Shown here: one piece after another, positions 6,708 to 36,348 of the stretch
How the letters are laid out: the number at the start of each line of letters is the position of its first letter
Position numbering within the stretch: the first letter of the stretch is position 1
DNA from: Natronosalvus amylolyticus
GTDB taxonomy: Archaea > Halobacteriota > Halobacteria > Halobacteriales > Natrialbaceae
Direction: 5' to 3'
Assembly (NCBI RefSeq): GCF_024298845.1
Contig: NZ_CP101156.1
Span: 2,852,001 to 2,916,000 of the forward strand
DNA length: 64,000 nucleotides
Position numbers and translations under genes: made by a program
The notes under the pieces: generated by a model
Databases searched by the model: none
What the model was told of the DNA's origin: nothing
What the model saw: the letters and a program-made list of their open reading frames with translations, nothing else

Positions 6708-6980
6708 GGACCTCGAAACCCTCTGGGCTGGTCGTGGATGGAAACGGCGTTCTCGAGTCTGGTCGGCTGAACTCATAGGGAGTATCGTCGGCGTGCATCG
6801 ATACCGACGAAGAACCCAGGCACAGCGTCGACAGCCGTCCTTCGAAACCGCTGGCTGCCTACGATACCCCCTACCAGTCCCCTCCCAAGCCACTCGGCCC
6901 ACCGCTCTTTCAGATTTGCCCCTTTCGAGCCCTCGAGCAGCCCGTGGCTCGCAACGAAAATAGTGCCGGGTGTCCACGCG

Positions 6981-9087: not shown

Positions 9088-9092
9088 CGTGA

Positions 9093-9788: not shown

Positions 9789-9790
9789 GA

Positions 9791-12109
9791 TCAGTCACCC
9801 CCTGTTTTCCGCACCTCGGCAGCGATGTGCCTGTCCACCTGTGAGGAGATCGGATCCGTCTGTCCGTCGTGTACTATCATGGTGTTCATACCGTCTTCCT
9901 TTGAATTGCCCTGACCGAAGCCGAACTCGGCGGTGACGAACCCGGGCGGGGTTCGTTCGCTGACGTATGCCATTACCTCTCCGTCGCCTTTCTCGGTGGC
10001 AACCGTGACCATATCTCCCGTTTCGATGCCACGTTCGTCGGCATCCGCCGTGTTCATGACGAGGTAGTTTCCTTCGTACTCCTCGCTGGCGAGCCCGTGT
10101 TTCCGCGCGTACTGCTCGCGTGGATGGTCGAGCACCTGGTCGGCACCGAAGGCGAAAAACACGGCTCGCGTGTCATAGAAGTGCAGCGGATACTCGCCGT
10201 CAGGTGTGTCCCCGAACGTTCCGGGCGGCACCCACTGCGGGCCAGTGTGGAGGTCGACGTCCGGAACCTGCTCGTCCACTTCCTCGATAGATCGCCTGTA
10301 TCCGTCTTCCTCGTCGAGATAGAACTGGAATTTCCCCGTCGCCGTCGAGAACCCGCTGTCTTTCCACTGTTCGTAGCCGAATTCGTCGAGGATAACGAAA
10401 TTTTCCTGGGCGACCTCCTCGAAGCTGTAATCGATGTTCGCCAGCATATCCTCGTTGTACTCGGCTTCGCTTTGCCAGGGGATGTACTCGCCCCAGCCCA
10501 TCGCCTCCGCGATCCCCTTCAGGATGTCGAAGCCGGGCTTTGTGTTCCCCTGTGGCTCGACTGCCGCTTTCGACGCGGATACCCACCGATTCTCGTGGTA
10601 GGCGCTCCAGGCCGGGGCATAATCGATGAGGGTGTCTTTCTCCAGCTGGATCGCCTCGGGGAAGACCACGTCAGCGTGTCGCGTGAGTTCGTTCCAGTAG
10701 GCGTCCACCGTAATGATTAGCTCCATCTCTTCGAGCGCCTCGAGCCAGGCCTGCGTGTTTCCGTCAGTTAGCGGATTGTCGTAGTGACAGTACATGCCCC
10801 GAATGTGCCCGTTTTCGACCATCTCGGGGATCTGGTTGTGGCCGATTCCCGTGGTGTGCCGGAACGGGTACTTCTCGTACTCTTCGTATTTCCTGAGTGC
10901 GGGCGTTTTCCCCGCAGCGTTGTTCGGGAGGTCGATATCGCGAACCTCGAACGGATTCGAGAACGGCGGTCCTCGCCAGAACCGAAGTCCACCCGGACGG
11001 TCGATGTTCCCGACGAGCCCGTTGAGAGCGAAGACAGCCTGGGAAGCCTTCTGGGACTCGGCGTACTGACCGACGCCTGTCCAGAGGGCGATTCCAGCTG
11101 CAGGTGCTGCTTCGGCAAACTCGACGGCGATCTGTCGAATCACGCCAGGCTCGAGGCCGGTTCGTTCACTGGCCCACTCGGGTGTCTTGTCGGCGACTTC
11201 CTCCCGGTAGCGCTCGAAGCCGTAGGTCCACTCTTCGACGAACGCCTCGTCGTACAGGTTTTCTTCGACGATGACGTGGCCCATTGCCAGTGCCAATGCG
11301 CCGTCCGTCCGTGGCTCGATCGGCAACCACTCGTCGGCCTTCTGTGCCGTTGGCGTGTGCTGTGGGTCGACGACGACCAGCTTTGCGCCGTTGTCGAGTG
11401 CTTCGAGCACTCCCTTGGGTTCCCACTGGCCTGCGAAAGACTCGAAGAGGTTTCGCCCCCAGGCGATGATGTAGTCGGCGTTCTGATAATCGACGAAGCG
11501 CATGTCCGCTCCGACACCCATGAGATTTCCGCTCAGGTGCGCACCGCCGAAACAGACGTGCCGACCACGACCGATTCGTTCGGGCGTTCCGTAGAGGTTG
11601 CCCCAGACGATTTCGTGCAGGTTCGTCGTCGCCCAGCTCGCGGCGTTGAGAAACGTCTCTGCACCATACTGCTCGTCTAACGCTTTCAGGCGCGTGGCTG
11701 CGTACTCGAAGGCTTCGTCCCAGTCGGCCTGGCGGAGTTCACCATCCTCCCGGATGTAGGGCTGGGTTATTCTGTCCGGGTCGTGGGCTTTCTCCATCTC
11801 TGCGAGCCCTTTCGGACAGAGTGTTCCCTCCCTCCCCGGGCCGGCGCTGCTACGCGGGTGGCCATCCACACCGGTGATGTCGACGATCGTGCCATCGTTG
11901 ACCGCGACTTCCTGGCCACAGGCGTGGTGACACATCCAGCAGTTCCCGTAGGCGACCTCCGCATCGCTGAGTCGGTCAAGATCCCGATCCGTTTCGTCAT
12001 CGAGAACACCGAGACAGCCACCCAGACTCATCGCACCGAGAGTAGCCCCGCTCACTTTCAGTAACGACCGCCGTGAGAGGGCGACCTCTCCAGCGTTGCT
12101 TTTACTCAT
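9791..12109 (-). CDS. Tat-exported molybdopterin oxidoreductase catalytic subunit (DMSO-reductase superfamily)
   Basis: This 772-residue enzyme starts with a Tat signal (SRRSLLKVSG) ending in a lipobox-like LGGC at Cys32, so it is probably a lipid-anchored protein outside the membrane. A [4Fe-4S] site is formed by CWMCHHAC (57, 60, 64) and Cys98 (CPKG). The likely metal ligand is Cys186 in RHVCFGGAH, as in NapA- and Psr/Phs-type enzymes. True DMSO/TMAO reductases use Ser. The dinucleotide-binding domain is at the C-terminus. ATG 12109 is used; the longer frame lacks conservation. Gene order recalls the haloarchaeal dms operon, but the Cys leaves a sulfur-compound or other oxyanion reductase open. 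Confidence 0.9.
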   Translation of the reverse strand: MSKSNAGEVALSRRSLLKVSGATLGAMSLGGCLGVLDDETDRDLDRLSDAEVAYGNCWMCHHACGQEVAVNDGTIVDITGVDGHPRSSAGPGREGTLCPKGLAEMEKAHDPDRITQPYIREDGELRQADWDEAFEYAATRLKALDEQYGAETFLNAASWATTNLHEIVWGNLYGTPERIGRGRHVCFGGAHLSGNLMGVGADMRFVDYQNADYIIAWGRNLFESFAGQWEPKGVLEALDNGAKLVVVDPQHTPTAQKADEWLPIEPRTDGALALAMGHVIVEENLYDEAFVEEWTYGFERYREEVADKTPEWASERTGLEPGVIRQIAVEFAEAAPAAGIALWTGVGQYAESQKASQAVFALNGLVGNIDRPGGLRFWRGPPFSNPFEVRDIDLPNNAAGKTPALRKYEEYEKYPFRHTTGIGHNQIPEMVENGHIRGMYCHYDNPLTDGNTQAWLEALEEMELIITVDAYWNELTRHADVVFPEAIQLEKDTLIDYAPAWSAYHENRWVSASKAAVEPQGNTKPGFDILKGIAEAMGWGEYIPWQSEAEYNEDMLANIDYSFEEVAQENFVILDEFGYEQWKDSGFSTATGKFQFYLDEEDGYRRSIEEVDEQVPDVDLHTGPQWVPPGTFGDTPDGEYPLHFYDTRAVFFAFGADQVLDHPREQYARKHGLASEEYEGNYLVMNTADADERGIETGDMVTVATEKGDGEVMAYVSERTPPGFVTAEFGFGQGNSKEDGMNTMIVHDGQTDPISSQVDRHIAAEVRKTGGD

Positions 12110-12329
12110 GGCTGATCGCCTCCGGTGGGACGTAGTCGTCACCGAACTCCGCCTCGAACTGTTCGTGATACAGTTCGTAAAAGCGCTCTTCGGACAACTC
12201 ACCGGCCGCTACACGTTTTGCAGCCTCCCCGGCGGACCGTCCGAGTTCCTGGTCGTATTCGCTCTCCTCGGGTTCGCTGTCCAGAGACTCGAGTGTCCGC
12301 AACGGATCCTGTGAATTTTTGGGTGCCAT
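12102..12329 (-). CDS. Small acidic protein heading the Mo-reductase operon
   Basis: This 75-residue acidic protein ends GELSEERFYELYHEQFEAEF plus a short tail. Its stop codon overlaps the first codons of the catalytic-subunit gene, so the two are translationally coupled. It has no Cys, signal peptide or membrane helix. The ELSEE.FYE.YHE pattern is familiar to me from haloarchaeal proteins in which such a segment precedes a ferredoxin-like domain, but here the segment stands alone. It holds the position of dmsE in the described haloarchaeal dmsREABCD order; that correspondence is inference. Confidence 0.65.
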   Translation of the reverse strand: MAPKNSQDPLRTLESLDSEPEESEYDQELGRSAGEAAKRVAAGELSEERFYELYHEQFEAEFGDDYVPPEAISHE

Positions 12330-12390
12330 AGTCGCTCACATATATAGCTTCATTCTACAGTGCCATCACCGACACTCGGGATCGGTTAAG

Positions 12391-12400
12391 GTTTTATAAG
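12391..12400 (-). promoter_or_regulatory. Likely TATA box of the Mo-reductase operon
   Basis: On the minus strand the sequence reads CTTATAAAAC, about 62-71 bases before the first ATG of the operon (12329). That fits a haloarchaeal TATA element with a 5' leader of some 35 bases. A second AT run (tatatata, 12340-12347) lies too close to the ATG to act as the TATA box of this gene. Confidence 0.5.
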
Positions 12401-12456
12401 GGACCGTGTGAACCGCCCGCGAGACGAGCGCTCACAAATGGCGTTGGATTCTCGAG

Positions 12457-12506
12457 CGCTCAGCAACGACGTTATCTCTTCCTTTTCGAACGCTCAGCAA
12501 CGACGT
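12457..12506. repeat. Two 16-bp direct repeats upstream of the Mo-reductase operon
   Basis: cgctcagcaacgacgt is present at 12457-12472 and 12491-12506, 34 bp apart. They lie between the end of the Cys-rich regulator gene and the operon TATA box, 57 bp or more upstream of it. The position suits activator-binding sites, perhaps for the adjacent bat-type regulator. Confidence 0.55.
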
Positions 12507-12572
12507 CGAGTTCTCGAGGCGTGGGACGCAGTTCAGACCGACACGAAAAACAGGGTCCAACGAACCGCTCGA

Positions 12573-13253
12573 TCAGTCGTCTTTCCAGCAACGACACGCA
12601 CAGTTCAGCTGTCTGAGAATGTTTCCCTCCGCACGACTGAGCCGCTGTGAGAGTGCCGACTTGGAGATGCCGATTCGGTCGGCGACCGTTCCGAGCGATC
12701 CCGAACTGTCCAGGTCGTAATACCCCGCTTCCTGTGCAACCGTGATGGCCTCGCGCTGTTTCGGCGTCAACACCGAGAGATCGATCGAACACCGTTCGTT
12801 CTGGTCGGACACGCCGGTATGGGTGATCGATCGAACGGTCACGCGGTTGGCTCGCTCTCTGATATCGTTGACCAGCGCCGAAAGCACGTCCACACTCTCG
12901 AGGTGGGTCTCGACCACGAACGTGTCCTCGGTCGCCTCGAGAAACCGTGGAATGCAGTCATAGACCGAAAACACAATCCCCGGACAGTGGGTGCAGACGT
13001 CGCTGGAGAACTGTTTCGTCGTGGTGGTTTGGTCTTCGCACTCTCGGATCTCGGCTTCGGCAAGACACCGGTTACCCTGAAAACGGATGTCGAACCCGAC
13101 GATGTCCGCCTCGAGATCATCGACCGGACAGCTTCCGCCGCGCTCGATTTCTAGCTCCGCGCGGACGGCTCGGTCTGATACCGGACCACTGTGTAGCGTA
13201 ACCGCCGACTCACCGACATTGGACTGCGCCGGCGTCGATTCGAGTTGTGTCAT
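12573..13253 (-). CDS. Bat-type HTH regulator with Cys-rich sensor region (DmsR-like)
   Basis: This 226-residue protein has a C-terminal bat-type HTH (LTPKQREAITVAQEAGYYDL, then LGTVADRIGISKSALSQRL). Its N-terminal domain contains several Cys and His residues: GSCPVDD, NRCLAEAEIREC and CTHCPGIVFSVYDC. These could bind a metal or Fe-S cluster and sense redox state. A CxCW pair closes the protein. ATG 13253 is chosen because upstream codons are unlike the family. It lies just upstream of the operon in the same orientation, as DmsR does in the described haloarchaeal dms locus. Activation under low oxygen is inference. Confidence 0.82.
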   Translation of the reverse strand: MTQLESTPAQSNVGESAVTLHSGPVSDRAVRAELEIERGGSCPVDDLEADIVGFDIRFQGNRCLAEAEIRECEDQTTTTKQFSSDVCTHCPGIVFSVYDCIPRFLEATEDTFVVETHLESVDVLSALVNDIRERANRVTVRSITHTGVSDQNERCSIDLSVLTPKQREAITVAQEAGYYDLDSSGSLGTVADRIGISKSALSQRLSRAEGNILRQLNCACRCWKDD

Positions 13254-13415
13254 GAATTTCCCTCCGGGCTGTTGCCTCGTACGTCCACGTAGGGTCTCCC
13301 TCGAGTAATGTAACTGGCCAATTCCCGACCGCCGAGAAAGCCGGTAGTTACCCGCTCGAGGAGGGCAGTCGGCATCCCTCGAGTGTCGCTGGCTCACAAT
13401 AATACAAGCGAGAAG

Positions 13416-13435
13416 CTCACGACTTCAGCCGTGAG
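13416..13435. repeat. Solitary hairpin like an IS200/IS605 end
   Basis: The stem ctcacg/cgtgag encloses acttcagc; it is preceded by gagaag and followed by gggaacgtga. This matches, from memory, the imperfect hairpin at the ends of haloarchaeal IS200/IS605 elements or their palindromic non-autonomous relatives. No transposase gene is nearby, so a relic or non-autonomous copy is the best reading. It lies between the regulator promoter and tRNA-Thr. Confidence 0.4.
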
Positions 13436-13529
13436 GGGAACGTGACTGTGTGCGTATTACGAGTTTGAGAATCGTCGGCTGGCCGGCTCGAGGATACCTG
13501 TCACTTCCAACCGTAATGCAGAGGAAAAA

Positions 13530-13600
13530 GCCTAGGCCGGGATTTGAACCCGGGCTCTCGTCCTTACCAAGGACGCGCTTTACCGCTAAGCTACCCAGGC
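13530..13600 (-). tRNA. tRNA-Thr (anticodon GGT)
   Basis: On the minus strand the 71-nt sequence folds as a full cloverleaf. The acceptor stem is GCCTGGG/CCTAGGC with one G-T pair. The D arm is GCTT...AAGC, the anticodon stem CGTCC/GGACG has loop TTGGTAA (anticodon GGT), and the T arm is CCGGG-TTCAAAT-CCCGG. No intron is seen and CCA is not encoded. Confidence 0.95.
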
Positions 13601-13792
13601 AGGCATACGCTGATTGACTCGAGTCGTCTTTATGGGTTTCGATTTACCCCCGTGACTGTGTCGGGCTGACAGTGTCGCTGAAAGAGACGCCTCGGTGTGA
13701 GTGCTGGAGTCCTCGAGGCGGAACGCGCTTGTTCGAGCAGCTAACGAGTATGGCTGGGGGAGGAATCGGTTGTGAGCGGACAACAGGCCCGA

Positions 13793-14593
13793 TCAGTGGT
13801 CGCTCGCCGACGGTACACGGTCGGTCGCGGGTGATTCGAGGTCGGTCCCTGAAGGCGTCTCTCCGTCCGGGCCGGCGAACGCCCCTGTCTCGAGGGCCGG
13901 GACACAGTCGTCTGCGGGCGGGAACTCGCCCTCGAGGGTGGCCGTGATGTCGGTGGCGAGCGAGAGGAGGGCGGGGGTTGGGGTGGCGTCGACGGCGGTC
14001 GCGCCGGTTCTGATCGCGAGTTCGAGGACGTCGCGCTCGAGGTTTGCGTCGTAGGCCGGTCGGTCGGCATCGGATGCGCTCGCGCGGAGGGTCTGATCGC
14101 GACCGAAGTGGCGAACGGTTTCGACGGCTTTGTCGGCGGCGTCGGTGCGCGCGAGGAGATAAAAGCCGCGGGCGACGAGGATGTCGGCGGCCAGGATCTC
14201 GAGGTCGGCGTGACTGTCGCCGTCGAATTCGGTCCAGGGTTCCTCGTGGGCGAGCGATCGAGTGAGCCGGAGGCCTTCGTAGATCAGCTGGACGCCGGCG
14301 GCGTGGTGGGCGATTCCCTCGAGATGCCTGTCGCTCGACGCGTGTTCACTGCCGGCTCGTTCCTCGTCGGGTGCGCTCGCGTCGGCGTGTGTGACGTCGG
14401 TCCGTGCGTGTGTTTCCGAACCGTTGTGCACGTAGGTGTGGTCCGTGAGGGCACCGGCGCTAGCGAGTGTGAGGGCCCCGGGTGCCATCGAGGCGTTCTC
14501 GAGCGTGGTTGTGATAAATTCGTAGAGGGCTGCCGGTTCGACGTCGGCGATGGCGTCGTATGCGGCTCGCCGGCAGGTTTCGGCCCGATCCAT
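13793..14593 (-). CDS. Conserved haloarchaeal helical protein of unknown function
   Basis: This 266-residue acidic protein starts MDRAETCRRAAYDAIADVEP. It is almost wholly helical and has a central segment with an HHAAGVQLIYEGLRLTRSL pattern and ILAADILVARGFYLLAR. The DILVARGF-like stretch recalls all-helical isoprenoid-synthase-like folds, but no DDxxD motif is seen, so I do not assign that function. It may belong to the haloarchaeal DUF7114 group (recalled, not verified). ATG 14593 is used rather than the longer frame, which overlaps the divergent crotonase-like gene. Confidence 0.7.
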   Translation of the reverse strand: MDRAETCRRAAYDAIADVEPAALYEFITTTLENASMAPGALTLASAGALTDHTYVHNGSETHARTDVTHADASAPDEERAGSEHASSDRHLEGIAHHAAGVQLIYEGLRLTRSLAHEEPWTEFDGDSHADLEILAADILVARGFYLLARTDAADKAVETVRHFGRDQTLRASASDADRPAYDANLERDVLELAIRTGATAVDATPTPALLSLATDITATLEGEFPPADDCVPALETGAFAGPDGETPSGTDLESPATDRVPSASDH

Positions 14594-14653
14594 CAACTGC
14601 TCTTTACGGCGGGGCAGGCAAAGACCTTTGGAAAGCCAACACCCACGACGCGT

Positions 14654-15352
14654 ATGATCGAAGTCGACGACGGGGAAGGGATTCGAACGATTCTGCTCGA
14701 CCGGCCGACGCGGAGAAATGCGTTGACGCCCGACGGTCTCGAGGCACTCGAGTCCGCGGTGGCCGAGACGCCCCACTCGGTGATCTTTCTCGAGGGTGCT
14801 GGCCCGGCGTTCTGTGCGGGTGCTGATCTGGACGTGGTGGCGGGACTCGATCGGGATGGGGCGGAAGCGTTCGCTCGCCTGGGCCAGCGGGTGGCGAACG
14901 CGATTGCGGACAGCGACGCGGTCGTCGTCGCCGGGATCGACGGTCCGGCCAGGGGTGGCGGGCTCGAGCTCGCGCTGGCCTGTGATATTCGCGTCGGGAC
15001 GCCGGAAGCGACGCTGGGCGAACCTGGCGTGACCTTCGGGCTGTTCGGCGCGTGGGGTGGGACGGTTCGACTGCCCCGCATCGTCGGCGAGGGGGTTGCT
15101 CTCGAGTTGGCGTGCACCGGGCGGGTACTCGAGGCCGAAGAGGCCCTGCAGGCCGGACTCCTGTCGCGACTCGAGGACGAGCCCAGAACCGTCGCCGAGA
15201 CGATCGTCGAGTATCCGACGGATACGCTCGCCGTCTTGCAATCACGGATTCGGGACCGGGCAGACCGGGCGACTCAGGAAGAGCGAGAAGCGCTCGCGTT
15301 CGGGGCGCTCGTCGAGTCGCACGGAGAGGCCATCGCTCGCCGATTCGGCTAA
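14654..15352 (+). CDS. Enoyl-CoA hydratase/isomerase (crotonase) family protein
   Basis: This 232-residue protein has crotonase signatures: the first oxyanion-hole segment GPAFCAGADLD, the second DGPARGGGLELALACD, and FGLFGAWGGTVRLPRIVG. The first catalytic Glu is kept (GGGLELA). At the usual PE position, where most hydratases have the second catalytic Glu, the sequence reads GEPGVTFG, apparently Gly. The reaction may therefore differ from classical hydration. It is shorter than the usual 255-260 residues. The start at ATG 14654 lies 60 bp from the divergent gene start. Confidence 0.85.
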   Translation: MIEVDDGEGIRTILLDRPTRRNALTPDGLEALESAVAETPHSVIFLEGAGPAFCAGADLDVVAGLDRDGAEAFARLGQRVANAIADSDAVVVAGIDGPARGGGLELALACDIRVGTPEATLGEPGVTFGLFGAWGGTVRLPRIVGEGVALELACTGRVLEAEEALQAGLLSRLEDEPRTVAETIVEYPTDTLAVLQSRIRDRADRATQEEREALAFGALVESHGEAIARRFG

Positions 15353-15394
15353 TTTCGTGGCTGGTCGGTCACCCGGGGAGGGTCACGCTGTCAC

Positions 15395-16708
15395 TCACAC
15401 CAGGAGGTACAGCGCCGCTCCCACCACGGCTCCCGTCAGTGTCGCGAGGAAGTTGACGCTCTGGTTGCCGATCGTCTCCCCCTCGAGTGTCGCTCCGAAC
15501 AGGCTGTCGGCGGTCATCCCGAGGAAACCGGCGGCGAAGATCACCGCTGCACCGCCGATGCCGAGGTCGGGATAGACCGCGAGGGCGACCCCGGCGATGG
15601 CACCTGCACCGGCGATACCCGCGAGTTCGCCCTGCCAGGTGATCCCGCCGTCGGTGCCCGGGTCGACGGGCTCGAGGGTGGTGATCAACCGCGGGTTGTC
15701 GAAGACTGCCCCGATCTCACTCGAGAGCGTATCGCTGAGGGCGGTGGCGACGGAGCCGGCGAAGGCGAACAGGAACAGGTGCGGGTCGACGCCGATGAGC
15801 GTCGCGTTGCTAGCTGCGTAGCCGAGGACGCAGGCGAGTGCAGCGGCGGTGTTGCCGAGGACGTTCGAACTCCCGCGTGCGCCGTCGTTGCCCTCGGCGA
15901 CCCCGCGGCTTGCTTTCTCCTCGTAGCGGAACTTCGTCGAGAGGCTGCCGACGGCGAAGAAGGTTATCAGGACGGCGAACCAGTCGTAGCCCCCGAGCAC
16001 GATAGTCAGTAAGGCGAGCAGGATCCCAGTGAGCATACCGGCGATGGAGGCCGTCCCCAGTGCGTGGGAGACGTAGCCCAGCGCGAGGGTGACCCCGAGC
16101 GCGACGACGATGCCGGTCGTGTCGACCGTGGGCTCGAGGGCCCAGAGGAGCCAGAGGGCAAAGCCGACGCTGAGCAACACGATGGGTTCGTCGTAGTTAA
16201 TCAACACGTCCCGGAGCAAGGCTGCGAGCAAGGTGCCGGCGACGGCGAGAAAGACGAGTACCGGGAGCGCTCCCTCGAGCGTGGTGTCCGTCGCAACGTA
16301 CGACGCGGCCTGGCCGGCGATGGCAGCCAGGCTGCCGACGACACAGAACGCGGCGGTGTGGACGATGTCGCGGTCGGTGCGTGTGCGAGCCAGGTGCTCG
16401 GCGAAGCCGCCGTAGCCAACGAGGAGGACGGCACCGACGAAGACTGACATCGGGAGCGACCAGTTGACCGCGAGTAGCCCGAGCGCGCTGATCGCGAGGA
16501 CGAATGTCAGCAGGCTGTAGAGTCGACCGTCTTTGTAGTCGCCGGGAAACGCGAACAGTTCGAAGAGCGGGCCGTCGGTGACGACGAGCGCCAGGGCGGC
16601 AGCGGCGACGGCGATGGGGGCCGCTAGCTCCGGGCCGAGAAACGGAACGGCCAAAGAGAGTGTCGAGAGTGCGGCATAGGCCCCTGCGCGCCGGGCTGGT
16701 GACGTCAC
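15395..16708 (-). CDS. DUF92 (TMEM19/VTE6-like) integral membrane protein, long form
   Basis: The C-terminal part of this 437-residue polytopic protein shows DUF92 features: GSLSTKFRYEEKASRGVAE, the VLGNTAAA turn, LSDTLSSEIG, and TADSLFGATLEG. Plant DUF92 proteins (VTE6) phosphorylate phytyl phosphate, so a role in prenyl-phosphate metabolism is plausible. About 190 extra N-terminal residues form six or so further helices not found in short DUF92 proteins. GTG 16708 is taken as start. It lies beside two cis-prenyltransferase genes, fitting isoprenoid carrier-lipid metabolism. Confidence 0.8.
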   Translation of the reverse strand: MTSPARRAGAYAALSTLSLAVPFLGPELAAPIAVAAAALALVVTDGPLFELFAFPGDYKDGRLYSLLTFVLAISALGLLAVNWSLPMSVFVGAVLLVGYGGFAEHLARTRTDRDIVHTAAFCVVGSLAAIAGQAASYVATDTTLEGALPVLVFLAVAGTLLAALLRDVLINYDEPIVLLSVGFALWLLWALEPTVDTTGIVVALGVTLALGYVSHALGTASIAGMLTGILLALLTIVLGGYDWFAVLITFFAVGSLSTKFRYEEKASRGVAEGNDGARGSSNVLGNTAAALACVLGYAASNATLIGVDPHLFLFAFAGSVATALSDTLSSEIGAVFDNPRLITTLEPVDPGTDGGITWQGELAGIAGAGAIAGVALAVYPDLGIGGAAVIFAAGFLGMTADSLFGATLEGETIGNQSVNFLATLTGAVVGAALYLLV

Positions 16709-16850
16709 GTTATCGCTTCTTTCTGTGGGGGGTACTTGAAGGTTCGTCAACGGGGCTGGCGCCCACCACGTCGAGTTGGACCATCGAAACACGCGGGTTG
16801 CAGGTCCATACGTGGTGAATCGATACGCTCGCCGAACCCGTTGACCGATG

Positions 16851-16925
16851 CTCGAGTCGTTTTTCCCATAGCCTCGAGTCGTTTTTTCGCTCCCTCGAGT
16901 CGTTTTCTCTCACTTCCTCGAGTCG
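16851..16925 (+). repeat. Four CTCGAGTCG-type repeats at 21-23 bp spacing
   Basis: ctcgagtcgtttt-like units start near 16851, 16873, 16894 and 16917, the last continuing as ctcgagtcggctcc. They lie in the divergent gap between the DUF92 gene and the small cis-prenyltransferase gene, ending about 40 bases before the latter. The spacing of about two helical turns would suit a series of protein-binding sites. Confidence 0.65.
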
Positions 16926-16965
16926 GCTCCGTAATCGGTATAGAACCCGCCCTCGAACTGGGGCT

Positions 16966-17571
16966 GTGGGCCTGTACGAACGTTATCTTCGGTCGCGAAT
17001 CAGCCGCTCTGATGGTGAGCCACCGGCACACATCGCGCTGGTGATCACCGAACGTGACCTCCTCGAGCGTGGCGCCTACGATACGCTCGCGGCCTTCTTC
17101 GAGTGGGCCTTCGAGTACGCCTCGCGCGTGACGGTGTACGTGAGTGTGCTGGACAGTGCGGCCGTTCCAACGCTCAGGCGGGAACTCGAGGATCTTGAGA
17201 CGCCGCGACCGGCTGCGGTTCGCGGTCCGGACGATACCGACGCGGCGGATGCCCCAATTCAGATCGGTATCGGGCTTGGTGGCAAGCACGAGTTCACACG
17301 GGCGGTCCGCACGCTCGCCGAACGCGTCGAAGATGGGGAGCTTTCGGCCGATGAAATCGAAGACGGGGACGTCGAGACCAACCTGATCTTTCCCGACGAG
17401 CCGGATCTGGTGATCAAGACGGGCGCAGAACGGCTCTCGGATTTCATGATCTGGCAGTCGGTATACTCGGAGCTGTATTTCACCGACGTCAACTGGCGGG
17501 ACTTCCGGCGGCGGGACTTCCTCCGGGCGGTTCGGGAGTTCTGTAACCGCTCGAGGCGGTTCGGAACGTAG
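16966..17571 (+). CDS. Cis-prenyltransferase homologue lacking the catalytic DGN motif
   Basis: This 201-residue protein has the C-terminal half of the UppS fold: LVIKTGAERLSDFMIWQSVYSELYFTDV..., ending FCNRSRRFGT, which includes the RxG-type tail. Where active enzymes have MDGNxRWA, this protein reads LVITERDLLERGAY, so the catalytic Asp and its loop are missing. It starts with GTG 16966. The neighbouring gene (17703-18662) has DGN but lacks an RxG tail. By analogy with NgBR/DHDDS, this may be the accessory subunit of a two-part enzyme; that is inference. Confidence 0.85.
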   Translation: MGLYERYLRSRISRSDGEPPAHIALVITERDLLERGAYDTLAAFFEWAFEYASRVTVYVSVLDSAAVPTLRRELEDLETPRPAAVRGPDDTDAADAPIQIGIGLGGKHEFTRAVRTLAERVEDGELSADEIEDGDVETNLIFPDEPDLVIKTGAERLSDFMIWQSVYSELYFTDVNWRDFRRRDFLRAVREFCNRSRRFGT

Positions 17572-17584
17572 GGCCGCCCTTGAC

Positions 17585-17652
17585 TTGTATTACAATAGCG
17601 ATTTTGTATTAAAATTGAATCAATAACTCCACTACTAATAGCATATGCTATT
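17585..17652. promoter_or_regulatory. AT-rich convergent gap with two perfect palindromes
   Basis: Between two convergent genes lies an AT-rich tract unlike the surrounding GC-rich DNA. It contains ttgta-t-tacaa (17585-17595) and the 16-bp palindrome aatagcatatgctatt (17637-17652). They could terminate both transcripts or bind a dimeric protein. No gene is seen. Confidence 0.45.
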
Positions 17653-17702
17653 TCTATTGGGGTAATGCCAAACCGGGAAGTACACCCACTGCACCTTCGT
17701 AC

Positions 17703-18662
17703 TTAATCGGCTACCTGACTCGAGTCGCCGTCGCCTGCCTCGCTCGCCTCGACAGCCGGTTGCCCGATGGCGTCGGCCTCGGGCTGTTCGGCGGTCGGAA
17801 GCGAATCGCGAAAGCGACCGAGAATCGAGCGAGCTTCGGCGAGTTCGGGTTCGCTCACCGCCCGGAGCAAGGCGAGGGCACGTCGGGCTCGCGTGCGCCG
17901 CCAGGAGGCCTCGCGGGATTCGTAGGTGCGGATGCCACGGAGGAAGTCTCGTCTGGAAAACTCGGGCCAGAAGGGGGCACAAAAGAAGACGGCAGCCTCG
18001 TTGCCGTTGGCGTGCCAGGGCAGGAAGTTCGAGGTACGCTCGTCGCCGCCGGTGCGGATGATGAGATCGACGTCGCGAACCGGCTGGGCGTACAGTCGCT
18101 CCTGGACCGTGTCGACGTCGATATCAGAAACCGCGAGGTCCCCCGATTCGACGTCGTGTGCGACGCTGCGGGCGGCCTCGAGCAACTGGGCGCGGCCGCC
18201 GTAGGCCAGAGCGATGTTGAGGACGAACTGGTCGTAGCCCTCCGTTCGTCCTTCCGCGTAGTCGATGGCGTCACGCACCCGTGGTGGAAGTCGCTCGAGA
18301 TCGCCGATGGCGCGAATACAGACCTCGTTCGCGTGGACGCGCTCGGCGTCGGCGAACTCGCGCAGTTTCTCACACAGGAGGTCGAACAGGGCCTCACGCT
18401 CTTCGGCCGGCCGGTCGAAGTTCTCCGTCGAGAAGGCATACAGCGTGAGTTCTTCGACGCCGATCTCCTGACACCACTCGAGGACGCGTTCGGTCGTCTG
18501 GGCACCGGCCCGGTGGCCGTCGTGTGCGCCGTCCCCACGCTGGCGAGCGTAGCGGCGATTGCCGTCCTGGATGACGGCGACGTGTGTGGGCGCGCCGGAG
18601 ACCTCTCGAGCGAGCAGTCGCTCGTAGCCTCGCTCGAGTTGCCGGAACAGCCACTGACGCAT
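17703..18662 (-). CDS. uppS: Cis-prenyltransferase (undecaprenyl/dolichyl diphosphate synthase), catalytic
   Basis: This enzyme extends an allylic diphosphate with isopentenyl diphosphate to make the polyprenyl carrier for protein glycosylation. The catalytic motif AVIQDGNRRYARQRG is intact, as are YAFSTENF, ALAYGGR and the pyrophosphate-binding LIIRTGGDERTSNFLPW. The product is 319 residues, longer than the usual 250, because of a C-terminal extension after RDFLRGIRTYESR; the usual RxG end is not visible. ATG 18662 (MRQWLF) is chosen as start. It is convergent with the DGN-less paralogue. Confidence 0.93.
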   Translation of the reverse strand: MRQWLFRQLERGYERLLAREVSGAPTHVAVIQDGNRRYARQRGDGAHDGHRAGAQTTERVLEWCQEIGVEELTLYAFSTENFDRPAEEREALFDLLCEKLREFADAERVHANEVCIRAIGDLERLPPRVRDAIDYAEGRTEGYDQFVLNIALAYGGRAQLLEAARSVAHDVESGDLAVSDIDVDTVQERLYAQPVRDVDLIIRTGGDERTSNFLPWHANGNEAAVFFCAPFWPEFSRRDFLRGIRTYESREASWRRTRARRALALLRAVSEPELAEARSILGRFRDSLPTAEQPEADAIGQPAVEASEAGDGDSSQVAD

Positions 18663-18812
18663 TACTCGGGACTGACACACTCGAGGGGTATGTCTCTTGT
18701 GTGTCACACTACCGCAGTGAGAACGGGTGACACTATCCACGTTCGTCCGTTCTGTCGACACTGTCTCGGGGAAATCGTGACGGCTTTGGGTCGTCGCACG
18801 AAACACTTACCA

Positions 18813-19217
18813 ATGAGCGAAATCCTCGATCCGGACCTGTACGCACGGACCAAAGCCTTGCTCGAGCCAGGAGACATCCAGCTCAACGGTGCAATTGTCC
18901 ACACCGAATACGGCTCGGACGATGACGTCCAGATGATGCAGACGACCATCGACGTGGGCGACATCATCGCCGAACACGCGGGCCACGACCCCCACGACTG
19001 TTTCGTCTACTCGGGCAACGACGACCCCGACTTCTCCTCGAACCAGCATCAGGGGTTAACCCTCGAGGACGAGTCGTTCGTCTGGGAGTGCCAGCAACTG
19101 CTGCGTCAGGGAACCTTCGACATCGTCATCTACTACGAAGCGAGTGCCGACCACGAGGCGATTCTCGAGGGAGTTTCGGACCTCGGATTCGACGTGACCG
19201 GCGTCGAAGGCGAGTAA
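18813..19217 (+). CDS. Conserved haloarchaeal protein (DUF5778-like)
   Basis: This 134-residue acidic cytoplasmic protein starts MSEILDPDLYARTKALLEPG and contains HDPHDCFVYSGNDDPDF and a C-terminal FDVTGVEG. I associate this pattern with DUF5778 from memory. No catalytic motif, membrane helix or signal is seen. ATG 18813 is divergent from the cis-prenyltransferase gene with about 150 bp between them. The function is unknown. Confidence 0.78.
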   Translation: MSEILDPDLYARTKALLEPGDIQLNGAIVHTEYGSDDDVQMMQTTIDVGDIIAEHAGHDPHDCFVYSGNDDPDFSSNQHQGLTLEDESFVWECQQLLRQGTFDIVIYYEASADHEAILEGVSDLGFDVTGVEGE

Positions 19218-19256
19218 GCTTGTACGGCGATTTTTGACTCGAGCCTTCGACACCAA

Positions 19257-19314
19257 CTCGAGTTCTCTTCTCACCGTCATCCCGTGACTTCCTCGAGTTC
19301 TCTTCTCACCGTCA
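19257..19314 (+). repeat. Two 23-bp intergenic direct repeats, 35 bp apart
   Basis: A 23-bp sequence beginning ctcgagttctcttctcacc occurs at 19257-19279 and 19292-19314, followed by two shorter tcaccctcg copies. The repeats lie between the DUF5778-like gene and the siroheme decarboxylase gene, about 100 bases upstream of the latter. Regulatory sites or slippage products are both possible. Confidence 0.65.
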
Positions 19315-19416
19315 CCCTCGCTTTGTCACCCTCGTTGTTCACTCGAGTCCAGCGTTTCGTTGGGACGAGACTCGGGTCCCGAGTCGCTTATGTCCCGTCC
19401 GTCCTGAGAACAACGT

Positions 19417-20478
19417 ATGAACACGGACGTCGATCTCACTGAGCGCGAGCGGGCCGTCGTCAACGCCTTTCAGGGCGGCTTTCCGGTCGTCGACTCGCCG
19501 TTCGAACCCGCTGCAGCGGCCATGCGCGAGGCGGGTTTCGAGATCACCGCAGCCGAACTCCTCGAGACGGTTCGCGATCTGGACGAGCGCGGCGTTCTCT
19601 CCCGATTCGGTCCACTGGTAAACGCCCAGCAGATCGGCGGCGCGGCGACGCTCGTCGCGATGCACGCACCCGAAGACCGGTTCGACGAAGTCGTCGACCT
19701 GGTCAATTCCCACCGCGAGGTGGCCCACAACTACGAACGCGAACATCCACATCTGAACGTGTGGTTCGTCGTGAGCGTGTCCGACGAGGCCCGCGTCGAA
19801 ACAGTCCTCGAGGAAATCGAGGCCGAAACCGGCCAGCCAACGTACAACCTGCCCAAACTACAGGAGTTTCGCGTCGAGGCCAAATTCTACGTCGACGGGC
19901 CACTCGAGGGCGGCCTCGACCTGACCGACCTCGGGCCGGACGTCGAGCCAACCGACGAATCGACGCTCACGCCGGCCGAACGCGACCTCGTCCTCGAGAT
20001 TCAGGGCGGGTTGCCGGTTACTGCAACCCCGTACGCGGACGTTGCCGATGCCATCGGCCGTGACCTCGAGTGGACGCTCTCGACGATCAAGCGCTTCGAC
20101 CTTGAGGGGAAGATTCGCCGAATCGGGGTCATTCCAAACCACTACGCACTCGGCTACACGGAGAACGGAATGACCGTCTGGAACGTCCCGGACGAACTCG
20201 TGAGCGAGGTCGGCCCCGACGTCGCTTCCCTCCCCTTCGTCACCCACTGTTACGAGCGGCCGCGACACGACGGCGTCTGGCCGTACAACGTCTTCGCGAT
20301 GACACACGGGCGCACGGAAGCCGAGAGCGACCAGCGCGTCGAGCAGGTCAGAGCGCGGATGGCCGAGTACTGGGACGTGGGCGAGGACGACTGGGACACG
20401 CTGTTTTCGACCCAGATTCTGAAAAAGACGGGCATCCGACTGGCCGAACGGGCCGAAGCAAACACGCAGACACAGTGA
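19417..20478 (+). CDS. ahbAB: Siroheme decarboxylase, AhbA and AhbB fused in one chain
   Basis: Siroheme decarboxylase converts siroheme to didecarboxysiroheme on the alternative heme route. This 353-residue chain has two homologous Lrp/AsnC-like units. Residues 1-165 contain LSRFGPLVNAQQIGG and VAHNYEREHPHLNVWF; residues 185-345 contain IRRIGVIPNHYALGYTENGM and VTHCYERPRHDGVWPYN. In most organisms these units are separate AhbA and AhbB subunits. The NYER and CYER segments hold the active-site His region. It is followed after 22 bp by sirC and then hemA. Confidence 0.92.
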   Translation: MNTDVDLTERERAVVNAFQGGFPVVDSPFEPAAAAMREAGFEITAAELLETVRDLDERGVLSRFGPLVNAQQIGGAATLVAMHAPEDRFDEVVDLVNSHREVAHNYEREHPHLNVWFVVSVSDEARVETVLEEIEAETGQPTYNLPKLQEFRVEAKFYVDGPLEGGLDLTDLGPDVEPTDESTLTPAERDLVLEIQGGLPVTATPYADVADAIGRDLEWTLSTIKRFDLEGKIRRIGVIPNHYALGYTENGMTVWNVPDELVSEVGPDVASLPFVTHCYERPRHDGVWPYNVFAMTHGRTEAESDQRVEQVRARMAEYWDVGEDDWDTLFSTQILKKTGIRLAERAEANTQTQ

Positions 20479-29351: not shown

Positions 29352-29783
29352 ATGACATCCAAACTCGTTCACCTGGTCGTGGCACTCACAGTCGTTGTAG
29401 CCCTCATCGTGGCGGTAGGGCTCGTCAGTGCCGAAACGAACACTCCCCTCGAGACAGCAGCGAGTAGCAGTGGCGAAATTGCAGAGCACATGGCGGGGCA
29501 CAACCACGGCGAACACATGACGGAGCACAACCACGGCGAACACATGACGGAGCACAACCACGGCGAACACATGGCGGGGCACAACCACAGCGAGCACATG
29601 GCGGGGCACAACCACGGCGAACACATGACGGAGCACAACCACGGCGAGCACATGGCGGGGCACAACCACGGCGAACACATGACGGAGCACAACCACGGCG
29701 AACACATGGCGGGGCACAACCACAGCGAGCACATGGCGGGGCACAACCACGGAGAGAACGGCGGTGAAGCCGGTCACTGCTGA
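29352..29783 (+). CDS. Secreted His/Met nonapeptide-repeat protein, probable metal sponge
   Basis: This 143-residue protein has a Sec-type signal (hydrophobic residues 6-25, likely cleavage after VGLVSA). Residues 45-134 are ten tandem copies of EHM[AT][GE]HNH[GS], and the tail ends AGHC. Each unit offers three His and one Met, about 30 His and 10 Met in all, so it should bind many Cu, Ag or Zn ions outside the cell. ATG 29352 is preferred over TTG 29337. Shared promoter block and position downstream of copB suggest copper resistance. No globular domain is present. Confidence 0.85.
   Translation: MTSKLVHLVVALTVVVALIVAVGLVSAETNTPLETAASSSGEIAEHMAGHNHGEHMTEHNHGEHMTEHNHGEHMAGHNHSEHMAGHNHGEHMTEHNHGEHMAGHNHGEHMTEHNHGEHMAGHNHSEHMAGHNHGENGGEAGHC
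29484..29753 (+). repeat. Ten 27-bp coding tandem repeats
   Basis: Ten head-to-tail 27-bp units encode the His/Met nonapeptides. Two main variants alternate (ATGGCGGGGCAC and ATGACGGAGCAC cores), plus a minor one with AGC for GGC in the last codon. Blocks of variants recur in the same order (units 4-5 and 9-10 are alike), which points to expansion by duplication of multi-unit blocks. Copy number is likely to vary between strains. Confidence 0.95.
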
Positions 29784-29972: not shown

Positions 29973-32006
29973 CTACAGGTTGCTCGCGACCGTCCGGTAG
30001 TGGTCGGCGATCTTGCGGTCCCACTCCGGGTCGGTCGCGTAGTAGACGTTCATGCCCTCGAGCGTCGGGCCGTTGTATCGCCAGTTACCGGGGGTGAGAT
30101 ACAGTTCGTAGACGTCGTCCATGACTGCCCAGACACAGTCCTCGAAGGAGTCGTAGCGTTCGGCACACTCGTACGGGCAGTCGTCTTCGGCACCGTAGCC
30201 GAAGAGGTTGTTGTGGTCCTGGGCGATGTCACTCGTTCCCCATGCCGACTCGTGAATCGCGTGTGCGAGCTGGTAGATGGCGTTGATACCGTACTCGTTC
30301 TGGACAGCGACGAACGTGTTTCCGAGCCCGATCAGGGGACTGTCCGGTCGCTCGGCTTCGATTGCGGCATTGAGTTCGGCTCCCGTAACCTCGACCGGTT
30401 CGGTCAGGTCGGTTTCGACGTCGAACGGCAAGGGTGCACGTCGGTCGCTCGCCGCCTCGAGATACCGTTCGACCGACCAGCCGCGCAGGCCAGTTTCCCA
30501 CTCGATTTCCCACCAGATGTAGCCGTCGCGGGTGACGATACCGTTCGTGACGGTCCCTGTCGTGGTTTCGTCGACGGTTCCGACGATGTCTGCCTCGAGG
30601 GAGCCGTCGGCCCGGACATTGAGCGTCGTGGTTGCGCGGAGTTCGTCTCCGATGGAAAACGGCGGTTCGTAATCGCCACCGGAGGCGAGATACCGGTCGG
30701 GAGACCAGCCATCGACGTCGTTGTTGTACTCGACGCGCCACCAGCGGAAGCCGTCGGCGTCGACGGGGCCATCCGACACCTGTCCGTACACGTCGGCGGG
30801 CTGGGTGTGGATGACGTTGTCGCCGACGGTGGGTTCGCTTCGAGCGGTTACGACGTCGGTCGTGTAGACGCGTTCGCCGGGTTCGAACCGTGCCTCGGTG
30901 TCCGTCTCGCGTTCGCCGGATTCGCCGGTCGTCGACACCTCGAGTAAACCTTCGGCTGACCAGCCTTCCGAGCCGTCGTTCCACTCGACGTGCCACCAGG
31001 TGTAGTCGTCGTGGTCGTTCGTCTGTGGCCCCTGGGTTACCGTGCCGACGGCGTCGGTTTCGACGCTCGTACGCACGTTGTACCAGGTGCTCGGGCCCGA
31101 GCGAACGTTGGTCGTCGACGTCGGCGTGACGACGGTACCGTGACAGAAGCCGGGACAGCCCTCGAGCCAGGGTTCGCCCGCCCAGGCCCAGATCCCTTCG
31201 GAGACGAAGTGCAGTCCCCACCATCGATACTTATCGCCAGCCTCCGGGCCGTTTATGACTCTGGCGGCGCTGTTGGCATCGACGGTGGCGACGACCGAAC
31301 TGTCCGTTCGCGGTGCCTCGTAGACGTCGAGGGTCGAAGTGGTGCGGACGGGTTGCTCGAGTTCGAACGGGCCCTCGGGGTCGTCCCCGCCGTCGCCCTC
31401 GAGGTGGGCCATGAGTCGGTCGGGGTCGTACGGACCGGGACAGGACGTCGAGTTCGAACTCGAACACCAGCTGTTGGTCGGCGCGTGCATGTGCCCGATA
31501 ATGCCGCCGTCGGCGTCACAGGGGGCCGTGTGGCTGGTGTAGTAGTTTTTCGGGATGTCGTATTTCTCGGCGAGGAACTCGATTAGCTGGGCCGACCGGC
31601 TGTAGAGCGCGTCGGAGAAGCCGTTTTGCCCTTCAACCCACTCGTGTTCGATCCCGATCGAATTCGAGTTAAACCCCGAGGCGTGCCAGGCGACGTCCGA
31701 CTCGTCGACCATCTTCGTCGTGTGGCCATCCGAGTTTCGGATGACGTAGTGAGCCGAAACGTTCGCACTCGAGTTACGGAACCAGTTGATCGCCCCTGCA
31801 TACGACCCGACCGTGTAGTGGATAACGATCCAGTTGATGTCGCTTTTCGTCCGATTCGAGGCCGAGTAGTTACTCGAGTGAGCCGGTAGCCACCGATCGG
31901 TAGGATCCGAGGCCGCCGACGCTGTGGTCGTTGCTGTGCCGAGTCCCACACCGGCACCCAGTGAGGCACCAGCAGACTGTAACAGTTTTCGCCGTGGTAT
32001 TTCCAT
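29973..32006 (-). CDS. Tat-exported peptidoglycan hydrolase: amidase + four SH3b-like repeats + glucosaminidase
   Basis: This 677-residue protein begins with a Tat signal (RRKLLQSAGASLG). Residues 35-195 are an Amidase_2 domain, with zinc ligands suggested by IVIHYTVG, GHMH and SCPGPYDPDRL. Four SH3b-like repeats follow (about 212-514), each with a WW.(V/I/L) strand and a W(S/A) end. The last 130 residues are a glucosaminidase with the catalytic Glu in AIHESAWGTS, then NNLFGYGA and the closing YATDPEWDRKI. Both enzymes cut bacterial murein, which haloarchaea lack. ATG 32006 is used, not GTG 32012. Antibacterial export is inference. Confidence 0.93.
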   Translation of the reverse strand: MEIPRRKLLQSAGASLGAGVGLGTATTTASAASDPTDRWLPAHSSNYSASNRTKSDINWIVIHYTVGSYAGAINWFRNSSANVSAHYVIRNSDGHTTKMVDESDVAWHASGFNSNSIGIEHEWVEGQNGFSDALYSRSAQLIEFLAEKYDIPKNYYTSHTAPCDADGGIIGHMHAPTNSWCSSSNSTSCPGPYDPDRLMAHLEGDGGDDPEGPFELEQPVRTTSTLDVYEAPRTDSSVVATVDANSAARVINGPEAGDKYRWWGLHFVSEGIWAWAGEPWLEGCPGFCHGTVVTPTSTTNVRSGPSTWYNVRTSVETDAVGTVTQGPQTNDHDDYTWWHVEWNDGSEGWSAEGLLEVSTTGESGERETDTEARFEPGERVYTTDVVTARSEPTVGDNVIHTQPADVYGQVSDGPVDADGFRWWRVEYNNDVDGWSPDRYLASGGDYEPPFSIGDELRATTTLNVRADGSLEADIVGTVDETTTGTVTNGIVTRDGYIWWEIEWETGLRGWSVERYLEAASDRRAPLPFDVETDLTEPVEVTGAELNAAIEAERPDSPLIGLGNTFVAVQNEYGINAIYQLAHAIHESAWGTSDIAQDHNNLFGYGAEDDCPYECAERYDSFEDCVWAVMDDVYELYLTPGNWRYNGPTLEGMNVYYATDPEWDRKIADHYRTVASNL

Positions 32007-32325
32007 ACACACCCTGTTCTTACAGAAACTATTAAATTTTAGGATTGGTTCTAAAGAATCAATATTTAAAACACGTAGTATTTTAAACCGGAATTGATAT
32101 TTGCACGCCTTCTCTAGCTGTGGAATACCGGGTTCCCGAGATTGTTTATCGATTGGCTACGAAATACGTCGGGATTCTACATGGTATTGATCATGTATTG
32201 TTACACTCAAAAAATCAAACTAAAACGCTTTTACTAGTGTGCCAATGCGGTGGATAGCATCATCAAATCCACTTGTGTACTCGAGTCCAACAACCGCTCA
32301 AAACAGGCTACGTCGCGGTTCCGGC
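32007..32325. promoter_or_regulatory. AT-rich upstream region of the hydrolase gene, with TATA box at 32029-32040
   Basis: No gene. On the minus strand aaaatttaatag (32029-32040) lies about 28 bases before ATG 32006, so the transcript is probably leaderless. The whole stretch to about 32220 is markedly AT-rich against the genome background and has several ttaaa and aatt runs, as often seen at acquired or strongly regulated genes. Confidence 0.6.
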
Positions 32326-34593: not shown

Positions 34594-34845
34594 TTACTCG
34601 AGGACGTCGAGCATCGATCTGAGAACGGGTTTTGGCAGCGTGTACTCGCGTTGTCGCCCATCAAGTGCCGAGGTGCGACGAACGACGACGAGGTCGTCCT
34701 CGAGCGTCGTCTGTGAAATCTCGGCACCGTCTTTCACTTCGTATTTCGGACGGGACGACTCCTCGAGGAAGGGCTGGACGGTGTGCCACACGGTCGAAGC
34801 AGAATCGGCGGAAAGTGCTACTGGGGAACGTTCAGCTTTACTCAT
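34594..34845 (-). CDS. Small conserved protein of unknown function
   Basis: This 83-residue acidic protein starts MSKAERSPVALSADSASTVW at ATG 34845; the frame is open for 20 more codons, but those are AT-rich promoter-like DNA. A central segment (EVKDGAEISQTTLEDDLVVV) is followed by a conserved-looking end (YTLPKPVLRSMLDVLE). No domain is recognised. The gene is convergent with the small membrane protein and separated from it by 13 bases. Confidence 0.65.
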   Translation of the reverse strand: MSKAERSPVALSADSASTVWHTVQPFLEESSRPKYEVKDGAEISQTTLEDDLVVVRRTSALDGRQREYTLPKPVLRSMLDVLE

Positions 34846-34995
34846 TGTTTGCGATCGGATACCTTCTCTGCACGTAAGTATATTCTCAACAAACTCTTTA
34901 TACACATTTCCTCTCTAATGTGTGTATTATGGTGGTATAATTCGTGACAATAGCTGGATAAAGTCTCACATTTCTGCAGGGTTTACTATTTTCAC

Positions 34996-36348
34996 TCAGA
35001 GGAACCCGCCCATCAGTACCAGTCCAAGGAGCAACACTAACGCGCTCATAGCAGCCACGAGCGGTTTGTTCTCCATCGCTTTCCGGTGAATCGGCAGCTT
35101 CGAATACTGCTCCCGGAACGCTTCCAGATTCGATTCGTCGTAAAAATACTTCCGCTTGAACGCGAACCGTTCGGTGACTGCACAGCCGGTACACACCGGT
35201 TCTCCCTCGAGGCGTTCGGTCTTGCTGTGGTCCCCACAGTTGATACTCCCACAGTTATCGCAGTAGGTGAACGGGCCACCTTCTTCGGCACAGTGGACAC
35301 AGCGGTGGATGCCGTCGTCGACGGTCACACGTGAGGGGCCAGCGACGTAACTCTCGTAGGTGTACCCGTATTCGCCGAGACGGATCGAATGCTGCAGTTC
35401 GGGAACGTACACCGCACTGACCGACTGGACGACGATATCCGACCCCTTCGGTTCGCAGGTTTTGTTGTAGGTGACGTTGTTATCCCCGGTGTAGGTCACC
35501 GTCGTCGTGTGCTGGCGACGCAACCGCTCGACGGCCCACTCTTTGTAGCCTGTCTCCGTCTGTCCGAACCGTTTGATCGTGACGCTATCGAACGTCGTTT
35601 CGAAGGACTCCGACTCGAGTTGAACCGTCCGGTCGATGTTGGCACTGATGAGATCCCGGACCGCTGGCTCGAACTCGCGCGGCTGCTCGCGACTCGCGTG
35701 CACGACGAACCGGTTCGTCTCGTCGATGCGATGAATCACGCCTACGGAGGTTTCGAAGACGGCATCCACTCCCGCCTCCACCGCGACCGCCGGCTCGAAC
35801 GTCGCCTCGACGTGGGTCGCTGGCAGGTCGCTCGAGTCGATGTTCCCGACGTCGCGTATCGCCTCTCGAATCGGTGTGTCCACGTCACCGGTCGGATCGA
35901 CCGGCCGCAGCGTTTCCTCACAGAGGATTTCGATGCGGCCATTGTACAGGTCGAGCCCGACTGCGTCAGCGATCTCCCGGAGGTCACGCCCGTCGATCAA
36001 CTCGATCGGGTACGGGTCGTCGTTGCGCTCGAGGCGGTTCGCGTACTCGGTTGCCGGGCCGGTGAATCGTCCCGTCGTAACGACCATTCCTCGCTTCGGG
36101 CCGTCGTACTGGTAGGTCGCAATCGCCGAATGCAGTTTCTGGACGACCGGCCGGCCGACCGTCCCGGTGTGTTTACACTCGACGACGATGGCACGACGGG
36201 TTCCATCGACGACCTCCTCCATCGTCACGTCCCGTCCCTCGTCGGCCGTCTTGACGGCCTGGCGAACGTTTTCGTAGCCGAGATTCCGGAACACGTCCTC
36301 CATGACGTCCTCGAACTCGAACCCCGACAACTCGTCCAACACTGCCAT
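34996..36348 (-). CDS. Mrr-type restriction endonuclease-like protein with zinc ribbons and C-terminal membrane helix
   Basis: This 450-residue protein begins with an Mrr_cat PD-(D/E)xK domain (about 1-125): FEDVMEDVFRNLGYENV, then DEGRDV and VVECKH as catalytic residues, and VVTTGRFT. A middle region of about 200 residues has no recognised fold. Near residues 345-395 are three Cys pairs (CVHC, CDNC, CTGC), likely zinc ribbons, and the protein ends with a helix (LVAAMSALVLLLGLVLMGGF). No methyltransferase gene is adjacent. A membrane-held nuclease that acts on incoming or modified DNA is a possible role, as inference. Confidence 0.8.
   Translation of the reverse strand: MAVLDELSGFEFEDVMEDVFRNLGYENVRQAVKTADEGRDVTMEEVVDGTRRAIVVECKHTGTVGRPVVQKLHSAIATYQYDGPKRGMVVTTGRFTGPATEYANRLERNDDPYPIELIDGRDLREIADAVGLDLYNGRIEILCEETLRPVDPTGDVDTPIREAIRDVGNIDSSDLPATHVEATFEPAVAVEAGVDAVFETSVGVIHRIDETNRFVVHASREQPREFEPAVRDLISANIDRTVQLESESFETTFDSVTIKRFGQTETGYKEWAVERLRRQHTTTVTYTGDNNVTYNKTCEPKGSDIVVQSVSAVYVPELQHSIRLGEYGYTYESYVAGPSRVTVDDGIHRCVHCAEEGGPFTYCDNCGSINCGDHSKTERLEGEPVCTGCAVTERFAFKRKYFYDESNLEAFREQYSKLPIHRKAMENKPLVAAMSALVLLLGLVLMGGFL

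Follow-up and report, generated by a model that had tools for sequence, protein, structure and literature searches.

Secreted murein hydrolases of archaea are already known. Halogranum has two enzymes, exported through the Tat pathway, that kill Halalkalibacterium halodurans, and peptide-uptake genes are enriched in archaea that carry such hydrolases (Strock et al. 2025, PMC12352652); whether archaea use these enzymes to attack rivals or to eat bacteria was left open in that study. Danwoldo and Woldo are Tat-exported haloarchaeal murein hydrolases built from catalytic and binding modules, and in Danwoldo a single enzyme is combined with two PG_binding_1 repeats. In bacteria, the staphylococcal Atl proteins (AtlA, AtlE and AtlC) run from a signal through an amidase and repeats to a glucosaminidase, have a hinge where the two halves meet, and carry GW repeats and an N-terminal propeptide. 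Closer to the individual domains studied here stand LytB of Streptococcus pneumoniae, a bacterial autolysin with a single (GH73) activity, and the AmpD-type and actinobacterial Amidase_2 enzymes.

Here, we describe a gene of Natronosalvus amylolyticus (genome G000) that joins an amidase and a glucosaminidase in one predicted secreted protein. It lies within a 64-kb stretch of the chromosome, which we call the window, and consists of a single uninterrupted minus-strand ORF of 677 aa that begins with an ATG at 32006 and ends with a TAG. Its features, together with the adjoining intergenic region, are as follows.

29973..32006, minus strand: whole gene, predicted secreted dual peptidoglycan hydrolase (ORF, translation, Pfam, 96% identical syntenic ortholog)
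31911..32006, minus strand: Tat signal peptide, residues 1-32 (motif, conservation, pLDDT <50)
31431..31844, minus strand: Amidase_2, residues 55-192 (Pfam, ligand conservation, match to AmpD 2y28)
31155..31367, minus strand: SH3 repeat 1, residues 214-284 (Pfam SH3_3; 58% identity to SH3 no. 1 of the sibling locus L003)
30936..31145, minus strand: SH3 repeat 2, residues 288-357 (57% identity to SH3 no. 2 of L003)
30894..30926, minus strand: seam linker, residues 361-371, GESGERETDTE (pLDDT <50; the closest relative switches across it)
30678..30887, minus strand: SH3 repeat 3, residues 374-443 (53% identity to SH3 no. 1 of the protein in genome G279)
30447..30659, minus strand: SH3 repeat 4, residues 450-520 (53% identity to SH3 no. 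2 of the G279 protein)
29976..30431, minus strand: LytB-like glucosaminidase, residues 526-677, catalytic E586 (Pfam, match to LytB 7pj4, NF052335)
32007..32325, no strand: AT-rich intergenic region between the gene and hisE (40% GC; conserved in N. hydrolyticus)

All three domain families exceed their Pfam cut-offs, by margins well outside what chance would give: Amidase_2 at residues 55-192 (E 4.5e-28, 98.6 bits vs a cut-off of 26), Glucosaminidase at residues 563-672 (E 1.8e-17, 64.6 bits vs 30.2) and SH3_3 over four stretches (40.9 bits vs 27). The N-terminus, MEIPRRKLLQSAG...ASA-AS, carries the twin-arginine motif RRKLLQ and an AxA cleavage site and has no lipobox Cys; the Tat assignment is based on this motif rather than on a signal predictor, and signal residues R5, R6 and L9 are unchanged across 11 relatives. 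The putative zinc ligands H63 and H172 occupy invariant columns in haloarchaeal and actinobacterial relatives, and the column of C189 holds either C or D; we read these three residues as zinc ligands because this is the conservation pattern expected in the Amidase_2 family. E586 aligns with the catalytic Glu of LytB, which is a Gln in the mutant chain of 7pj4. A structure model built from a 30-sequence alignment has a mean pLDDT of 81 and falls below 50 only at residues 1-32, 206-209, 361-371 and 522-526. In this predicted model, the fold of the amidase part is matched by AmpD (2y28; Z 16.5, rmsd 2.6 Å over 148 residues) and that of the C-terminal part by LytB (7pj4; Z 22.6, rmsd 1.9 Å over 147 residues), in a structural comparison that barely covered the SH3 folds. 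Pfam, conservation and the model thus give the N-terminal domain both the fold and the His/His/Cys(Asp) site of Amidase_2 zinc amidases, and alignment and model give the C-terminal domain both the fold and the catalytic Glu of GH73 LytB-like glucosaminidases. The two-enzyme architecture, the Tat-type signal and the presence of both active sites had all been proposed in an earlier note written from the sequence alone, and they withstood these searches and the structural check.

Set beside the known systems, the window protein is a variant of an established theme. Archaeal modular peptidoglycan hydrolases have at least one murein-cleaving Pfam domain, which here are Amidase_2 and Glucosaminidase, at least one cell-wall-binding domain, which is present if SH3_3 is counted as such, and a secretion signal, which is recognized here by motif only. 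The glucosaminidase scores E 2.6e-52 and 178 bits against NCBIfam model NF052335; this is below the whole-protein equivalog cut-off of 500 because the rest of the window protein differs. Judging by its name, that model refers to a locus of Halogranum salarium, and the underlying protein is apparently Danwoldo (J2ZJU5). The published work mentioned in the earlier note is that of Strock et al., and the window glucosaminidase belongs to the same haloarchaeal group as that of the bactericidal Danwoldo, while the window protein has an extra amidase and SH3_3 repeats in place of PG_binding_1. With Atl it shares the order of signal, amidase, repeats and glucosaminidase as well as a hinge, here predicted, between the halves. 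It differs from Atl in carrying SH3_3 repeats, with no GW family reported by Pfam, in having the amidase directly after the signal, and in its LytB- and AmpD-like domains, which would have been assembled inside archaea separately from Atl. LytB, in turn, provides the closest solved fold and catalytic Glu for the C-terminal domain, but unlike the window protein it has one activity; the AmpD-type and actinobacterial amidases share the fold and zinc ligands of the window amidase, whereas haloarchaeal amidases form a separate, fully supported group. Compared with the article text of Strock et al., what appears new is a two-enzyme, four-SH3 form made from two resident archaeal genes.

The hydrolase gene is a maintained chromosomal gene. 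Natronosalvus hydrolyticus AArc-curdl1 (G297) has a 96% identical ortholog in the same gene order, and dN/dS between the two is 0.13, indicating purifying selection. By sequence reading, one flank holds hisE, a bifunctional-nuclease-like gene and pdxT, and the other a His-rich repeat protein, a regulator and a heavy-metal P-type ATPase. The assembly is 99.94% complete and 0.43% contaminated, the gene sits on the main contig, and its product is acidic (D+E 16.6% vs K+R 5.7%); contig placement, synteny and composition rule out contamination or a recent bacterial import, and the archaeal host assumed by the earlier note stands. Both domains do resemble those of phage endolysins and tail lysins, which might suggest a lysin or provirus captured in the chromosome. 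Against this, the named phage matches are distant (about 37% over a single domain at best) and come mostly from phages of Gram-positive hosts, neither viral neighbours nor viral orthologs were found, and the host of a halovirus would offer no murein to break. The housekeeping neighbours, the Tat signal and the synteny in a second species (which, for the amidase part, extends to another family) rule out a provirus, and we regard a phage origin of this kind as extremely improbable. Intragenic recombination between the G000 and G297 copies (dS 0.33 in the glucosaminidase vs 0.08 in the amidase) was dropped because divergence climbs across the entire downstream flank too.

The AT-rich region upstream of the gene, which the earlier note had taken as a hint of acquisition, is not supported as such a mark: both region (92-98% identity in 200-base steps) and gene are conserved in N. 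hydrolyticus, an amidase-SH3x2 gene stands beside hisE in another family, and the domain groups look old. Its low GC is unusual, as the window has just one other such stretch, at 34801-35050, where a restriction-endonuclease-like gene (34996-36348) ends. Between the hydrolase gene and the metal-type regulator, with the P-type ATPase nearby, positions 29352-29783 encode a short secreted-looking protein of GHNHGEHM and EHNHGEHM repeats, which probably binds metal (copper) and whose repeat region varies between species.

By sequence comparison, the gene is a chimera assembled inside haloarchaea from two older single-enzyme modules. When the near-identical N. hydrolyticus copy is set aside, the best match of residues 1-357 is the Tat-amidase-SH3x2 gene that siblings in the genus carry (G094; 69%), and that of residues 370-676 is the second half of a protein from another Natrialbaceae genus (G279; 60%). 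The repeats follow the same division, with SH3 repeats 1 and 2 pairing with the two of the sibling, and 3 and 4 pairing in order with the two of the G279 protein. In the amidase tree, a clade of the window and G279 proteins is rejected (p-AU 8.9e-8), whereas their glucosaminidases form a clade with a support of 100; therefore, one and the same SH3x2-glucosaminidase cassette follows two distinct amidases. The seam at residues 361-371 is among the few stretches of low model confidence and is predicted to be a disordered linker where the two ancestral modules meet. In two genomes of another family (f7; G023 and G054), an amidase-SH3x2 gene adjoins hisE as in the window, so the resident amidase-SH3x2 gene was probably first at the locus. 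The cassette was joined to the end of this resident Tat-amidase-SH3x2 gene.

Related genes in other archaea display further arrangements of these modules. In Halocatena, amidase and glucosaminidase are encoded by separate adjacent genes that both carry a twin-arginine signal, an arrangement that supports the idea that the two activities work together. A remnant in G282 (L227, 1022-1360) joins an amidase start to a glucosaminidase end and is consistent with a dual-enzyme gene that lost its middle by internal deletion. In G235 and G318, the sibling amidase genes (L007 and L009) seem to stop after one SH3 repeat and have an in-frame TGA within the matched region, so that decay of the second repeat is possible. 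Inspection by eye points to another two-enzyme haloarchaeal form in G212 (L043), in which a Tat-glucosaminidase-SH3x2 part is joined to an M23-type peptidase end, and, outside the haloarchaea, to a secreted glucosaminidase-SH3 protein with a C-terminal Cys/His-type domain in the Thermoplasmata archaeon SKW197 (L144, 4054-6204).

We sampled 392 genomes across the order: 69 of them, belonging to 21 of 95 genera, match some part of the protein, and 19 have a Glucosaminidase above the family cut-off. Trees with bacterial relatives, the check that the earlier note had proposed, returned haloarchaeal groups for both domains. The amidases form their own group with a support of 100; the glucosaminidases, including that of Halogranum rubrum, fall on one side of a branch whose SH-aLRT of 92 is not decisive, with a lone actinobacterial metagenome sequence adjoining them. 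The nearest bacterial glucosaminidases by identity include those of halophilic Bacillaceae such as Aquibacillus (52-53%), and for the amidase the closest bacterial sequences found came from actinobacteria (up to 54%, with other phyla thinly sampled). Both haloarchaeal domain groups look old. Since each domain has its own tree and its own nearest bacterial relatives, amidase and glucosaminidase probably derive from separate, ancient bacterial sources and were later inherited and reshuffled within haloarchaea. A single bacterial donor for the whole protein was rejected on a search of plasmid and phage records, none of which reached 80% coverage in one place.

We propose, as the likely reading, that the window protein is a secreted modular hydrolase with two activities, joined inside haloarchaea, whose main use is the lysis of Gram-positive competitors in salt or soda brines. 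Judging from its signal, it would be exported by the Tat pathway, and its SH3 repeats would anchor it on bacterial murein. By homology, the protein should cleave both bond types: the zinc amidase would act at the bond between MurNAc and the stem peptide, the LytB-type glucosaminidase within the glycan strand. A wall cut at two different bonds would lyse, as suggested by the conserved active sites, by the folds and by Danwoldo, the relative that has been tested. The archaeon itself would be immune, since it has no murein. Killing may carry over from that relative with some reserve, as the closest tested relative shares the glucosaminidase domain only and has PG_binding_1 rather than SH3 repeats. 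SH3_3 repeats can bind non-murein ligands, and an outer membrane would shield Gram-negative halophiles. Haloarchaeal coats can be glycan-rich, and SH3 repeats are not strictly murein-specific; in this sense, the bacterial folds could have been kept to hydrolyse an archaeal surface polymer, such as the cell's own sheath, an S-layer glycan or the coat of rival archaea. Both murein active sites are retained, however, Danwoldo kills a bacterium, and the haloarchaeal distribution is patchy, at the 21 of 95 genera given above, all of which makes an archaeal target very unlikely.

Lysis of bacteria could serve competition or nutrition. The window protein could also scavenge dead walls or feed the cell on peptides and cell contents, and a scavenger would break down the murein of dead or living bacteria for amino sugars and peptides. 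Some haloarchaea have a conserved cluster that looks like a murein-feeding pathway, comprising AnmK, NamZ, NagZ, a beta-lactamase-fold hydrolase, IclR and a transporter binding protein, together with hydrolase-domain genes. On plasmids of Halorussus aquaticus and H. limi, an Amidase_2 gene lies inside the cluster, with a NagZ-type GH3, NamZ, the beta-lactamase-fold hydrolase, AnmK, a GNAT enzyme, an IclR regulator and a transporter; in Halocatena marina, a window-type glucosaminidase lies beside the same cluster. The cluster loci are L071 5287-30405 (H. aquaticus plasmid), L073, L228 and L229 (Halocatena marina, 6729-20000), and an SDR gene is also present. AnmK and NamZ occur in an identical set of 26 of the 392 genomes (Fisher p 3.5e-41), and hydrolase-domain matches are enriched there (21 of 26), an enrichment that is confounded by phylogeny. 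A search of open-licence PMC papers for a haloarchaeal murein catabolism pathway gave nothing relevant. The cluster and the peptide-uptake enrichment reported by Strock et al. speak for feeding in some haloarchaea. In contrast, neither AnmK nor NamZ occurs in G000 or in the other sampled Natronosalvus genomes, MurQ exceeds its cut-off in none of eight Natronosalvus genomes, and the window gene sits with hisE, pdxT and metal-related genes, outside any such cluster. We therefore consider lysis or killing likelier than the eating of murein sugars in Natronosalvus, where AnmK and NamZ are missing, and scavenging as the main role unlikely. Of the two roles that the earlier note had offered, both stay conditional, and it is the feeding part that is weakened. 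The main use of the window protein would most likely be the lysis of competing Gram-positive bacteria, and nutrients set free in the process could be a side benefit.

It is tempting, if speculative, to suppose that haloarchaea reshuffle a pool of hydrolase modules for two uses, feeding where they stand beside the AnmK-NamZ-NagZ cluster and attack where they are fused into secreted multi-enzyme lysins. The window protein might then be an archaeal-made two-enzyme weapon that reinvents the Atl layout and is possibly split at the seam after export. More broadly, the chimera shows that archaea go beyond borrowing bacterial genes and recombine established hydrolase modules of their own into multi-enzyme forms. 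Haloarchaea also appear to be split between genomes that combine hydrolases with a cluster for murein-sugar catabolism and genomes that, like that of the window, have the hydrolase alone. As these two sets of genomes can be distinguished, the choice between weapon and food becomes testable by comparing them.
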